From Phycisphaerae bacterium (GTDB lineage Bacteria > Planctomycetota > Phycisphaerae > Sedimentisphaerales > Anaerobacaceae): a stretch of 64,000 bases of DNA. Location of the stretch: assembly GCA_026386805.1 (NCBI GenBank), contig JAPLMX010000077.1, forward strand, positions 17,550 to 81,549, written 5' to 3'. The notes under the pieces are model-generated. The model ran no database searches. It had not been told where the DNA came from and was given only the letters and a program-made list of their open reading frames with translations. How positions within the stretch are numbered: position 1 is the stretch's first letter; every line of letters starts with the position of its first letter. The position numbers and the translations under genes were made by a program. This document shows, piece by piece, positions 5,901 through 53,019 of the stretch.

Positions 5901-5982
5901 TGGAATGCTGGAATACTGGAATCATGGGGGAACGAGTTCAACCGCCCCAACATTCCAACATTCCAACATTCCATTATTCCAA
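5901..5982. repeat. opposing arrays of 8-nt units
   Basis: TGGAATGC/TGGAATAC/TGGAATCA (5901-5924) versus CATTCCAA/CATTCCAA/CATTCCAT/TATTCCAA (5951-5982). Confidence 0.85.
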
Positions 5983-7263: not shown

Positions 7264-10200
7264 ATGAGAACACTCCTTCTGTTCGCCTCAGTGCTATCGT
7301 TTGCCGCCGCAGGATGGGCTGCGCCCGCCGATTCCCAGGCTGCTGCGTTTGACATCGCGTCATTTGGCTCTCGTATGTCCTATGAGGACGGCAAAGCTCA
7401 CGGCGTCCGGTGGGCGGAGCCTCGAAAGGTCCGGCGCGTGGTCGTGGAATTCGATGGAAGTCAGACCCCGCCCGAGCCGTCGCGGGTTCGCTTGGAGTAC
7501 TGGCATCGGGTCTGGGACGGCAAGGCCGACCCGTTGAACTTCGAGCGTGGCGCCGGCGGCGTCGGCTGGGACGCGCTGGATGACTGGACGAACGGCCGGT
7601 GGGTTACGGCGAAAGGCCGCGTCGAGCGGACCGGCAACTCGTATGAATTCACCTTCGCTCCCACCTCCTCGGAGGAAATCCCCAAGTTCCAGGGTGAGGG
7701 AGTGACGTACCGCAAAACGCTCGCGGTTCGCATCGCGGCCGATGGTGGCCTGCCCGCGCCGGTGCGGTTTCGGGTGTATACGGACTCGATCTGCAAGACT
7801 CTCCGCATTCGCATCCAGTTCGGCGCGCCCCGGGAGGCGGCTTTCAAGGCGGGCCAGGGCGAATCGGGCCGGCTGGAGGTCTTCAATGGCATGGTGACGG
7901 CCGTTCGGCCGATAGACGATGGCTCCGTCACGATCCAGCCGGACCTGACGTGGACTTTGAATAAACCTAATGCCGGCGGCGTCGAGGCCGATCTGCTGAT
8001 GGCTGCCGATCCGATCGACGGCCGCTATGATCGCACGATTGTCACCGTGCGTTCGAGCACGAGGCCGTTTTCCTTCGCGGCGGATGAAGTGGCGCGGGGC
8101 GACCGCGTCCTCGTGGACGATCTCGGCGTGCTCGTAACGAGTGCGGAGGACAAGATCTCTCTCGACGCCTACCGCGAGGCCCTGCGGCGCGAGTTTGGAG
8201 GTCAGACGGTCTACGACCGCGTCGCCGCCGGCGACGAGCAGACCCTGAGCCGTGCCTGGAATGACATGCCGCTGAAGCGCCCGTGGAACTTTGCCCACGG
8301 CCTGCCGGGCAATCGCAACACGATGCGCCAGTGGCCCAACGGGGAGATCGAAGTCACCGCTTACAAACGCTGGTTCGACGTGCAGCGAAGTCCTCGCGAC
8401 AGCGACCGCAAGCTCTGGTCTGGCGAGATGCTGCGGATCTCCTGCAGCTTCCCGGCGGACGGCCGCGGCGGCCGCGAGCTTCAGGACGGCTACCTGCCCG
8501 TCCTGCGCACGTGGTGGCAGAGCGGGCCGGTGTACTACGAGCAGAAAACGGTCCTGACGGCGGCGGTCAAGAACTTGGACGACGTGGCCCTGGACACGCC
8601 CACCATCCTGCTGATGCAGATCCGGGTCATGAATGTCTCGGATTCCCAGGAGGCTGCGGCGACGCTGCGGTTCGGCGCGCACGCCGACGGCAACGAAAAG
8701 ATCATGCTCAGAAACGACCAGGCAATGGCTGTGACGGTCGCCGGCGAGAGGCTACGTTTCCTTGTCAGCGCCGAAGGCCAGACGGGCTTGGGTTCCCAAA
8801 CGCAATCTTCCGCGTTGGGGGTCCCCTTCCAGCAGGAGAACGATTCCGTGGCCTGGACCGCGAGCCTCAAGCCGGGCGAGAGCAAGCTGCTCCGCGTGAC
8901 CATTCCCTCGATTACTCTGCTCCAGGGCGACGAGATCGAGTTGGTCAGGACGCTGAGCTTCGAGGCCGAGGCCGAACGCGTCTGTGCCTTCTGGCGCGGA
9001 GTGACGGCGAAAGGGACGCAGATCCAGACTCCTGAGCCTTGGATCAACGATTTCTACAAGGCCCACGTGCGGCACCTGCTGATCAACTGCTTCAAAGAGC
9101 TGGGCACGGACTACCTCCACGCTCACGTGGGCACGTTCCACTACGGGGTCTATCCGAGCGAGTCCGTCATGATGATCAGCGACCTCGACCGGCGGGGCTA
9201 CTATGACCAAGCCCGCCGTAATTACGATGCTTTTCTGCACTATCAGGGCACGGTCGCCCTGCCCGGCAATTTCAAGAGTTCCGAGGGCGAGTTTTACGGT
9301 GCCGGCGGCCACGAGACGGGCGGCTACAACAAAAGCCACGGCTACGTCCTGTGGGGCATGGCCGAGCACTGGTGGTACACCCGCGACCGGGAGTGGATGG
9401 CGAAGGCGGCCCCGGGGATGGTCAAGGCGTGCGAGTGGGTCATTCGCGAGCGGCAGGGCACGATGGCCACGAACCCGGACGGAAACAAGCCGCTGGAATA
9501 CGGCTGGCTGCCCGCCGGCTCGCTGGAGGACGTGACCGACCGCTGGAATTGGCTGGCGACGAACAGCGCCACGGTGTGGGGCTTCCGGGCGTTGGCCGAT
9601 GCCTTGGCCGACTTCGGACATCCGGAAGGCAAGCGGTTGCAGCAGGAGGCCCGGGCGTACTATGACGATTTCATGCACGGTATTACGGAGTCGCGGGTCC
9701 TCTGTCCCGTCGTGCGGCTGCGGGACGGCACGTATGTCCCCAAGATCCCGTCGCGGCTCTACGAGCGCGGACGGGCCTACGGGTGGATACGGGAGGTCCT
9801 GGAAGGCTCGATGTTCCTGCCCGCCTACGGCCTGCTCGCTCCCACGGCCCCCGAGACCCGATGGATTCTCAAGGACTATGAGGACAACCTCTACATCTCG
9901 GACCGCTACGGCTATTCGATCCCGGTCTACGATGCCTTCTGGTTCTCGCGCGGCGGGTTCTCCATGCAGGCCAATCTGCTCGATGGCCCGTTGTCGTACC
10001 TGTGGCGCGACGACGTCAAGCACTTCATCCGGGGCTACTTCAACGGCTTTGCCTCGGCGTTCTATCCCGAGATCCGGATGTGCAACGAGCACTCGCTGCC
10101 CGAGCTGGGCTACCCGGCGGGCGACCTCTTCAAGACCTCCGATGAGGCCCAGTCCAACTACTGGCTGCGGCTGATGTTCGTCAACGACGAAGGCCCCGAC

Positions 10201-17935: not shown

Positions 17936-18033
17936 GAAGTTTCAAGTGTGAAGTGTCAAGTTTGAAGTGCTGGATTGGGAGGAGCAGGGATCGCGTCTTC
18001 TCACTTCCAACTTCCCACTTCAAACTTCTTCAC
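17936..18033. repeat. opposing arrays of 7-nt units
   Basis: GAAGTTT/CAAGTGT/GAAGTGT/CAAGTTT/GAAGTGC (17936-17970) versus CACTTCC/AACTTCC/CACTTCA/AACTTCT (18002-18029). Confidence 0.9.
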
Positions 18034-37964: not shown

Positions 37965-38069
37965 AAGTTGGAAGTGTGAAGTTTGATGTTTGAAGTGAGA
38001 TGTCTGGCGGCAGTTCCTCCAACCGGGAATCAGAAATGAAAAATCAAACATCAAAAATCAAACATCAAG
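37965..38069. repeat. opposing arrays of 7-nt units, right arm inside prepilin leader
   Basis: AAGTTGG/AAGTGTG/AAGTTTG/ATGTTTG/AAGTGAG/ATGTCTG (37965-38006) versus AATCAGA/AATGAAA/AATCAAA/CATCAAA/AATCAAA/CATCAAG (38028-38069). Confidence 0.9.
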
Positions 38070-38566
38070 AATCCCCGAAGGGGTTCACGCTGATCGAGGT
38101 CCTGATCGCGACCGTCCTGATCGGCCTGTCCATCGCGGCCCTGGTCGGGGCGAACGTCTCGTTCTCCATGGCCAACGTCACGGGAGCGGACTTGTCCACC
38201 GCCGAATTCCTGGCCGAGCAGATTCGAGAGCTGACCACGATGCTGCCCGTGGTAGAGCCCGGCGCGACCACCTGGACGGTGCTGGGTCCGGAAAGCGGTG
38301 AGACGACCGTGGCGCTGTATGACGACGTGGACGATTTCGATGGCTTCGACAGCGCCTCCCTCGGCGCGCCGATCAGCGCACAGAGGACCACGCTCCCCGA
38401 CCTGTCGGCCTTTCGCCAGAGGGTCATCGTGGAGAAACTGAATCCGTTGAACTTCAACGAGCCAAAGGCAGACAGCTACACCAGCAATTTCGTCCGGGTC
38501 ACCGTGACCATCCTACAGAGCGGACGGCCAATCAGCTCGGCGAGCTGGATTCGGGCGAGATATTGA
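38036..38566 (+). CDS. prepilin/pseudopilin with class III-type N-terminal methylation motif
   Basis: MKNQTSKIKHQESPK-GFTLIEVLIATVLIGLSIAALVGA. Confidence 0.85.
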   Translation: MKNQTSKIKHQESPKGFTLIEVLIATVLIGLSIAALVGANVSFSMANVTGADLSTAEFLAEQIRELTTMLPVVEPGATTWTVLGPESGETTVALYDDVDDFDGFDSASLGAPISAQRTTLPDLSAFRQRVIVEKLNPLNFNEPKADSYTSNFVRVTVTILQSGRPISSASWIRARY

Positions 38567-42454: not shown

Positions 42455-42530
42455 GTTTGAAGTGGGAAGTTTGAAGTCCCAAGTGAGAAGCGGTTTCATC
42501 CCGTCGGAGACTTCAAGCTTGACGCTTTCC
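42455..42530. repeat. opposing arrays of 7-nt units
   Basis: GTTTGAA/GTGGGAA/GTTTGAA/GTCCCAA/GTGAGAA (42455-42489) versus ACTTCAA/GCTTGAC/GCTTTCC (42510-42530). Confidence 0.8.
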
Positions 42531-50198: not shown

Positions 50199-51785
50199 AT
50201 GATCTTCACCTTACATCGCTATATCTTCTGTGAGCTGCTCAAGGTCTTCGTCTTGGCCACGGTCGCGTTGACGCTGATCTTGAGCCTGGGCGGGATCTTG
50301 CGTCCAGTCCAGGAGTACGGGGTGGGACCTCGGCAGGTCGTTCATATCCTTCTCTATTTCATGCCCATCACGCTGACGTTCGTGCTGCCGATGGCGGCGC
50401 TCTTCGCTTCGGCGTTGACCTACGGGCGATTCGCCGTCGATAACGAGCTCGACGCCTGCCGGGCCAGCGGGGTCAGTCTGCTGACGCTCATCTATCCGGG
50501 GTTCGTGCTGGCGCTGCTGGTGGCGATCGCAAATCTGCTCTTGAGCTTTCGCGTCATGCCGTACTTCGTGCATCTGGCTGAGAAGTCCATGAAGGCCGAC
50601 GCCAGGCAGATCCTCTTCCGCAACATCCAGCGCAAGGGCTACTATAGCCTGCCGCCCGATGGGCGGTATTTCATCTACGCGGACTACGCCGATCCGATGA
50701 GCGGCACCCTGTTCGGCATCGTCGTGGTCCAGTACGAGAATGAGCGGATCAAACGGATCGTTACCTCGGAAGCCACCAAGGTGCAGTTCGATCCGCACGA
50801 CAAATTCAACGAGGTGCAGCTCAACGTCTACAACGCCAGGCAGATCGGCGATGCGGCGAACGACTACTGGGGCCGGATCGGGTCGCTGCTCCTGAAGAAG
50901 GAATTCGGGTCGCTCCTGGGCGACAAGATCAAGTTCAAGAAGGTCGATGAGGTGAAGCGGATTCGCGCCGACCTGATGCAGTTCGACCCCATCGCCAAGA
51001 TCGCGCGCACGGCTTACGTGCAGCTTGCCACCGAGATGCTCGCCCAGGACATGGGCCGCAGACTCCGCGCGTCGCCGGGGGACTTTTATGATCTCAAGGG
51101 TTCCCCTCACTCGGTTCGGTTGTCGGCGACCGCCTGTGCCCTGGACAAACGGATGGTCATCTCGCTCAAGCCGCCGGTGATCGTGGAGGAATACGACACT
51201 CGTACCGGCGAGCGTCTTCGGAGGCTGCGGTGTGAGAAGGCCGAGATCTATGTGGAGGAGGACCCCGCGAATCCCAGGCTGGGTCTCGATTTGCACAGCG
51301 CCCGCGACGAGGTCGGGGGGAGCCTGCTGGTGCAATACGTGGTGGCGGACTTGGCCCTGCCTGACACGATCCGACAGAGCCTGGAGCGCCAGCCGATTCT
51401 GTCGGCCGTCTCCTCGCGGGCCCAGGTCACGTCGATGCTGGGAGGGCCGCCGAGCTCGATCCTGGCAGGGCAGCAGACCAACCTGAACGCCGTGATCGTC
51501 CACACCCAGGCCGCCATGAAGTCCGAGATGAACTCACGCCTGGTGTTCGGGATCGGCGGTATCCCGATGATCCTGATCGGGATCGGTCTGGGCATCGTCC
51601 AGCGGGGCGGCCGCTTGCTGGGCGCCTTCGGGGCAAGCTGCGTGCCCGCCGCGGTCATCAGCGGCAAGCGCCTCGTGGAAACCACCGGCCCTCGCGGTCC
51701 CTCCGGCGTCCTCGTCATGTGGGCCGGTGTGGCGTTCCTCGTGCTTCTGACCGCGTGGATCTACCGGAGACTGTTGCGGCGATGA
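50199..51785 (+). CDS. LptF/LptG-type lipopolysaccharide export permease
   Basis: YjgP/YjgQ topology: FVLPMAALFASALTYGRFAVDNELDACRASGVSLLTLI. Confidence 0.8.
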   Translation: MIFTLHRYIFCELLKVFVLATVALTLILSLGGILRPVQEYGVGPRQVVHILLYFMPITLTFVLPMAALFASALTYGRFAVDNELDACRASGVSLLTLIYPGFVLALLVAIANLLLSFRVMPYFVHLAEKSMKADARQILFRNIQRKGYYSLPPDGRYFIYADYADPMSGTLFGIVVVQYENERIKRIVTSEATKVQFDPHDKFNEVQLNVYNARQIGDAANDYWGRIGSLLLKKEFGSLLGDKIKFKKVDEVKRIRADLMQFDPIAKIARTAYVQLATEMLAQDMGRRLRASPGDFYDLKGSPHSVRLSATACALDKRMVISLKPPVIVEEYDTRTGERLRRLRCEKAEIYVEEDPANPRLGLDLHSARDEVGGSLLVQYVVADLALPDTIRQSLERQPILSAVSSRAQVTSMLGGPPSSILAGQQTNLNAVIVHTQAAMKSEMNSRLVFGIGGIPMILIGIGLGIVQRGGRLLGAFGASCVPAAVISGKRLVETTGPRGPSGVLVMWAGVAFLVLLTAWIYRRLLRR

Positions 51786-51822: not shown

Positions 51823-51910
51823 ATGGACTTCGGGGACGGCGTGGACAGGATGGAGTCGGCACAGCGTCCCTGTCGTCCATGAAGTCCAGGTTGTCCACGG
51901 AGCCCACGGA
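51823..51910. repeat. opposing arrays of 9-nt units
   Basis: ATGGACTTC/GGGGACGGC/GTGGACAGG/ATGGAGTCG (51823-51858) versus GTCCCTGTC/GTCCATGAA/GTCCAGGTT/GTCCACGGA/GCCCACGGA (51866-51910). Confidence 0.85.
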
Positions 51911-51918
51911 GGCAAGAA

Positions 51919-53019
51919 ATGAGAATCCTCGATCGATACATCGCAAAGAGCTTCCTGATCGGATACGTCATTTCGTTCTGCGTTCTCATCGGGCTGCGGG
52001 TGATCATCGATCTGTTCGTGAACCTCGATGAGTTTGCCGAGCACGTCGACCTCGGGGCGTGGTCCGTGGCCAAGAACATTGTCACGTACTACGGCGTCAA
52101 CATGACCCTCTACTTCCGCGACATCGCGGGCGTGATCATCGTGGTGGCCGCCGCCTTTTCCCTGGGCAAGATGGTGCGGGCCAATGAGTTGGTGGCCATG
52201 ATCGCCTCGGGCGTCAGCGCCAAGCGGATCGTCAGTCCCATTCTGATTCTGGCGCTCTTCTTCACGGGACTGTCCGTCGCCGATCAGGAGCTTCTGATCC
52301 CGCGGATCAGCGACAAACTCGCGCGGAACGTGAACGACCTGACGGCCAAGGCATTCTATGCGATCTGGTTCATGCCGGCCGGGGACGGCGCCCTGCTTTG
52401 CTCGATACGGTACGATGTTGAGACGCAATCGTTTCACCATCCCACGATCATCACCCGACGGCCCTCCCCAAAGCCGGGCGTGTGGGACGTGACCGGCCGG
52501 ATCTCGGCGGACCTGGCGACCTACAACCCGCAGACGGGAGAGTGGGACCTGGTCAACGGTCTATACGTCAGCACGGACTCGAGCGTCGCGCCCAAGCCGG
52601 TGGCCTCGTACCACGCGCTCGATCTTCTCCCGAAGGACATCGCGATCCGACGCAAGTCCGGATACAATTCCCTGTTGAGCTCTCGGCAACTGGCGGCCCT
52701 CGCGGCCCAGCAGAGCAAGATGAAGGACATGGCTCAGCTCCTGAGCCAAAAGCACTTCCGCATCACCGACCCGATCATCAACCTGACGATGCTCATGGTG
52801 AGCCTGCCCGTGCTGATCTGCCGCGACCCCCGGACGATGAAGTCCGCCGTCTTGGTCAGCTTCGGCCTGACGGCGGCCTGCTTTGTCACCACGTTCGTCT
52901 GCAAAATGTTCGCGACGGAGATCGTCTTCGAGCGGGTGATGCCGGAGTTGTGGGCTTGGCTGCCTGTCTTTATCTTTCTGCCTATCGCTTTCATCGAGCT
53001 GGACTCGATGAAGACGTGA
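51919..53019 (+). CDS. LptF/LptG-type permease
   Basis: MRILDRYIAKSFLIGYVISFCVLIGLRVIIDLFVNLDEF; FSLGKMVRANELVAMIASGVSAKRI. Confidence 0.85.
   Translation: MRILDRYIAKSFLIGYVISFCVLIGLRVIIDLFVNLDEFAEHVDLGAWSVAKNIVTYYGVNMTLYFRDIAGVIIVVAAAFSLGKMVRANELVAMIASGVSAKRIVSPILILALFFTGLSVADQELLIPRISDKLARNVNDLTAKAFYAIWFMPAGDGALLCSIRYDVETQSFHHPTIITRRPSPKPGVWDVTGRISADLATYNPQTGEWDLVNGLYVSTDSSVAPKPVASYHALDLLPKDIAIRRKSGYNSLLSSRQLAALAAQQSKMKDMAQLLSQKHFRITDPIINLTMLMVSLPVLICRDPRTMKSAVLVSFGLTAACFVTTFVCKMFATEIVFERVMPELWAWLPVFIFLPIAFIELDSMKT

Follow-up and report, generated by a model that had tools for sequence, protein, structure and literature searches.

The array between the lptF- and lptG-like genes belongs to a real class of converging short-period hairpins that is dispersed through the genome and turns over between species, with a fixed architecture and changing units. 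We judge it an even chance that the array represents a small non-coding insert belonging to a class that spreads in the genus, selfish or neutral in character rather than a device for translation coupling. By this proposal, converging hairpins with a period mostly of 7 nt, and in fewer cases of 8 or 9 nt, would have spread through the genus, and copies would persist where they do little harm, either just past a stop codon, provided that space remains for the next Shine-Dalgarno sequence, or in frame within a protein linker. The spread would be mainly selfish or neutral, with whole hairpins being copied, and the unit arrays would later be remodelled by whole-unit slippage and by one arm serving as template for the other.

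The window—the whole 64-kb stretch of DNA analysed—contains the array in a 133-nt gap between the two genes (Table 1). The lptG protein has two named relatives, one from a Sedimentisphaerales MAG and one from a Planctomycetota MAG, which makes the source a planctomycete MAG, probably of the Sedimentisphaerales. The left-arm units read, in order, ATGGACTTC, GGGGACGGC, GTGGACAGG and ATGGAGTCG, and those of the right arm GTCCCTGTC, GTCCATGAA, GTCCAGGTT, GTCCACGGA and GCCCACGGA. Direct reading and shuffling both bear out the original prediction of opposing 9-nt arms and a 7-nt spacer at 51823–51910, followed after 8 nt by the lptG ATG at 51919; dinucleotide-shuffled versions of the gap pass the array criterion at 5e-5 (20,000 shuffles). 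The GGAGG sequence is unpaired in approximately 30–50% of the predicted ensemble. An Rfam search of the window returned tRNA only, with no described RNA family at the array. None of the terminator-like or promoter matches near lptF-lptG lies inside the array, and a terminator or promoter role there was therefore rejected.

Table 1. Coordinates of the lptF-lptG array, its neighbouring genes, and the other arrays of the window.
Feature	Coordinates	Strand	Evidence
lptF-like gene, upstream neighbour	50199..51785	+	Pfam PF03739, E 1.4e-41
Left arm: four 9-nt units, consensus xTGGACxxx	51823..51858	+	direct reading, shuffle test
Spacer, 7 nt, GCACAGC	51859..51865	+	direct reading
Right arm: five 9-nt units GTCCxxxxx, the final one degenerate (GCCC)	51866..51910	+	direct reading, shuffle test
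GGAGG region, likely lptG Shine-Dalgarno sequence, overlapping the last right-arm unit	51907..51911	+	
lptG-like gene, downstream neighbour	51919..53019	+	Pfam PF03739, E 1.5e-35
8-nt (TGGAATNN) converging hairpin	5901..5981		
7-nt (GAAGTNN) converging hairpin	17936..18028		
7-nt (GAAGT/GATGT/ATCAAAC) converging arrays	37965..38068		
7-nt left arm only, right arm degenerate	42455..42480		

Four further sites in the window had been predicted to share this architecture. Those at 5901 (8 nt), 17936 (7 nt) and 37965 (7 nt) do so, passing the shuffle test at 5e-5 to 2e-4, whereas the site at 42455 has a left arm but too degenerate a right arm to pass the array test, and is probably a decayed copy. 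The right arm of the 37965 array encodes the N-terminus of a pseudopilin-like ORF starting at 38036, and over 38036–38075 it gives this protein its start and leader (N_methyl motif, PF07963).

Approximately 1.0 Mb of the genome of the window (5.55 Mb, 279 contigs) was scanned as stretches, each arm being required to contain, at a fixed period, either two 5-mers or three 4-mers, and 57 converging-arm hairpins were retained. Some of the stretches were picked for contigs with GAAGT or TGGAAT matches, so the overall density is biased upward; an unbiased subset (every fifth contig, ~262 kb) contains six elements, or ~23 per Mb. Period 7 is dominant, with 41 matches (plus four counted at period 14) versus 0–2 in shuffles of the 1.0 Mb, and there are nine matches at period 8 (0–1 in shuffles) and nine at period 9 (0–3 in shuffles). 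About six of the period-9 matches are chance matches in GC-rich coding sequence, and six such matches were taken out by hand ahead of counting the 57; 9-nt elements are therefore few, and the 51823 array is among approximately three that are convincing. Period 15 gave six matches (0–1 in shuffles): two belong to a 180-nt repeat described below, and the other four are single-seed matches in coding sequence; all other periods are close to the shuffle background. The 7-nt units have a conserved core with variable positions (GAAGTNN, CGGATTN and others), the 8-nt units read from the matches include TGGAATNN and GACGCAGA, and the 9-nt units include CACAGAGNN and GGTCCTTTN in addition to that of lptF-lptG; dozens of unrelated loci carry the same units. 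The scan thus lends good support to the view of a coherent class, with a strict period at each locus, a unit that differs between loci, and inverted arms. In sister genomes G002, G003, G005 and G008 the density is 39–201 elements per Mb, the stretches having been selected in part for matches, and a few stretches from outside the genus contain 0–38 per Mb. The exact GAAGT hairpin pattern is found in seven of 395 genomes of the phylum, scattered among them; in one distant planctomycete (G098) there are 24 matches per strand to the backward-read pattern, in other words inverted arrays whose two arms come in the reverse order.

Genes were called for this analysis by a hexamer-based method, and start positions are consequently approximate. 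Thirty-four of the 57 elements lie in co-directional gaps, six between convergent genes, five between divergent genes, nine inside ORFs and three at stretch ends, and the background of all gene junctions is 492 co-directional, 93 convergent and 89 divergent. Element orientation is that expected by chance, since all junctions show the same proportions—there is no enrichment between convergent genes (6/45 elements versus 93/674 junctions)—and we take this as support for selfish or neutral insertion. The original prediction that such arrays always stand immediately ahead of a start codon, in a gap between co-directional genes, does not survive the convergent, divergent and intra-ORF cases and the match to background. 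In co-directional gaps most elements start between 28 nt inside and 40 nt past the upstream stop, only two fail to leave 12 nt or more ahead of the next start, and the median distance from array end to start is ~30 nt. The tighter positional constraint is the upstream stop rather than the next start, and the spacing is what the loss of copies disrupting a stop codon or Shine-Dalgarno sequence would be expected to leave.

Of the seven sister genomes with the lptF-lptG junction, six have either an overlap of stop and start or a gap of no more than 19 nt there, versus the 133 nt seen here, which argues for insertion; the seventh (G005) carries a different hairpin, of a 7-nt GATGATT type, and in L021, which is more distantly related, the junction holds a 7-nt array with one arm. 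Unit names for the sisters are readings of the printed sequence. At L071:19744 the source genome of the window has GAAGT/GATT units, and among the sisters the array is absent in three, of GAAGT types in two, and composed of AGTTGAC units in one (G003). Six species retain a left arm of GAAGT type, its units changed, between gspF and the pseudopilin gene, and in G006 the gap is 12 nt; the kept arm could mean function, and we count it against the insertion reading. As judged from these genome sequences, the elements are gained and lost between species, and one slot can carry different unit families in different species.

Arrays are also read in frame within proteins, namely an amine oxidase, MalQ, QueG, Lnt, Fe-ADH, FliH, AddA and AddB, and the inserts in the last seven of these point to selfish or neutral insertion; MalQ, QueG, Lnt, FliH, AddA and AddB are conserved proteins. 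The AddB linker has CGGATT units in the source genome, GAGGACR in G002 and GCAGGCC in G008, and is short and without an array in G005 and G006; the FliH linker of G003 has a different 7-nt unit. The swapping of unit families in these two linkers, together with that at lptF-lptG and L071:19744, argues in the same direction. Repeated use of several sites fits with there being a few permissive linkers and a steady flux of elements.

Copying is plain for the element at L071:16452, which is ~150 nt long with heptameric arms; 15 or more long copies of it are dispersed through the source genome, with further ones in the sisters; it is the only family with the MITE-like trait of many dispersed copies of one sequence. 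Its dispersal, and the loop common to members of the GAAGT subgroup, support the insertion reading, although loops are mostly unshared between copies (7/27 match another copy), which we count against it. Arms fit their own partners better than same-family arms elsewhere in the GAAGT (p 0.003) and CGGAT (p 0.013) families, again in favour of insertion, and the TGGAAT arms, with no own-partner preference in the arm-swap test, count on the other side, as does the lack of a target-site duplication signal over the 57 elements, whose boundaries are fuzzy (flank match 3.56 native versus 3.56 swapped).

Predicted folding is strong, with a mean z of -4.6 and 55 of the 57 elements below -2, the elements having been selected for inverted arms. 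The consensus of the 150-nt family is also predicted to fold, but two-sided change is seen in just one of 34 pairs and the covariation term is unfavourable; compensatory covariation in this family was therefore rejected. The motif GACTCGC occurs in loops of both 7-nt and 8-nt families (4/51 loops versus 0.18 expected), too few for it to define the class across families. In four stretches (L236, L247, L248 and L254), 150-nt copies are mosaic, with the outer arm swapped at about the same point for another palindrome (GACAACTCCGCCGCAGGCGGA...).

The GAAGT hairpin is present in 22 IMG/VR stretches. In L272 and L256, which have a clear tape-measure gene and were examined most closely, hairpins lie beside or near that gene, and this occurrence of GAAGT hairpins in phage-like contigs near tape-measure genes also favours insertion; the IMG/VR contigs with GAAGT hairpins may be proviruses. 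No TGGAAT hairpins were found in viral contigs. One 24-kb phage-like contig (L261 and L262; IMG/VR 3300001765_000221) has four GAAGT hairpins with a common loop (AGAGGCTCTAGCC...), and one of the four is oppositely oriented.

Two repeats of other kinds were also seen. A separate dispersed palindrome with GTAG...CTAC bounds is inserted in AddB (L074:3483-3580) and looks like a GTAG-type REP; it has many copies in sister genomes, with up to 100% identity over 50 nt, and the AddB of G002 appears to be without it (alignment break). The 180-nt element, at L071:4624-4806 and 7858-8038 in opposite orientations, has many sister copies at ~78–84% identity and resembles a MITE or IS remnant.

An alternative is a local origin, in which 7–9-nt polymerase slippage and fold-back (snap-back) synthesis would build each hairpin in place, with no mobility. 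Such a process would yield one architecture with many unit sequences, different families in the same slot, arms that fit their own partners, and no target duplication, and slippage of the polymerase has already been put forward to account for an excess of heptamers (cited in PMC4679880 and PMC4692102); we nonetheless consider it unlikely, given the same units at dozens of unrelated loci, some with common loops, and a 150-nt family that is plainly copied. We give a small probability to a sequence-flexible process, perhaps an enzyme extending and folding back DNA ends in 7–9-nt steps, that writes converging short-period hairpins into chromosomes and phages; were it true, architecture rather than sequence would be inherited, and new protein linkers would be supplied.

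Cis-acting RNA control of the downstream gene, either by translation coupling or through binding of an S1, Csp or CsrA-like protein, would agree with the ends of co-directional arrays near starts, the strong folding of elements selected for inverted arms, and the partial pairing predicted for the lptG Shine-Dalgarno sequence. It is rendered improbable by the elements between convergent or divergent genes and within ORFs, by orthologous junctions that have no element or a replacement, and by the near lack of compensatory change in the aligned family; the earlier suggestion of an effect on translation coupling or mRNA structure is thus unsupported by the one alignable family, by junction turnover, and by the in-frame copies. 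Intercistronic hairpins that stabilise mRNA or terminate transcription, as proposed for some REP elements, are highly improbable: strong predicted hairpins do lie directly past stop codons, but they show no convergent-gene enrichment, some copies are intragenic, and all terminator-like matches near lptF-lptG fall outside the array. Least probable is mobilisation as REP elements by Y1 (RAYT-like) transposases. The genome has ten Y1_Tnp loci as well as the GTAG/CTAC-bounded palindrome in AddB, but none of the six Y1 loci examined has converging arrays—an observation we also count against insertion—and this route was rejected; the arrays are moreover periodic, and no GTAG tag was seen by eye at their ends.

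An excess of heptamers in bacteria was noticed years ago and its origin left unexplained (PMC4679880, PMC4692102). The present genus has many unit families in one genome, a swapping of slots between sister species, and in-frame linker inserts, which together make the origin of heptamers directly testable by comparison of strains and reveal a source of operon spacing and protein insertions.

Nothing fitting was found in a search of the literature on planctomycete heptamers. REP/BIME elements and MITEs are likewise dispersed intergenic palindromes, and one family here behaves like a MITE, but the arms described here are periodic, and neither a RAYT link, target duplication, nor (by eye) a GTAG tag was found. 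The STRR heptamers of cyanobacteria are short tandem heptamers of several unit types, known mainly as direct arrays, and by that description resemble the present arrays in their short heptameric repeats and multiple units. Rickettsia palindromic elements are sequence-defined families of ~150 bp that lie in frame inside conserved genes (PMC10969869); the likeness, by description, is in size and in-frame position, the latter applying to other copies of the class and not to the lptF-lptG element, and they are not described in that source as short-period arrays. TAACTGA heptamers, known from Beggiatoaceae, cyanobacteria and Bacteroidetes and suggested to have a cis-acting RNA role, are also intergenic 7-nt tandem units near start codons, without preference for a functional class (MacGregor 2015, PMC4679880). 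They are, however, almost only direct repeats (one is inverted, in the BOGUAY genome) of one unit, mostly forward to the start, whereas the source genome has other units and inverted arms, which places its arrays outside that family.

The closest described case is that of the GGGAATC heptamers of Xanthomonas (Rehm et al. 2015, PMC4692102), whose convergent pairs have a very similar anatomy, and the original remark that no exactly fitting described family was known has to be given up. GGGAATC/GGGANTN units have conserved and variable positions and form 70–75 convergent close pairs per genome; most of them lie in intergenic sequence, at a mean distance of 28 nt from the 5' ORF, and they vary from species to species; the flanking ORFs are mostly aligned, with 16% convergent, 7–8% divergent and 7–11% intragenic (PMC4692102, which also cites Calothrix heptamers). 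Shared with the present class are the 7-nt unit (9 nt in the lptF-lptG element itself), the conserved core, the converging pairs, and an intergenic position near the 3' end of the upstream ORF with no divergent preference. The architecture and placement are the same but the family is not, because the unit sequences differ: the G4-forming GGGAATC unit is absent, by eye, among the units of the 1.0-Mb scan. Xanthomonas has a single G-rich, G4-forming family, whereas here there are many families, units of 8 and 9 nt as well, inserts in frame in protein linkers, and slots that change family between species.
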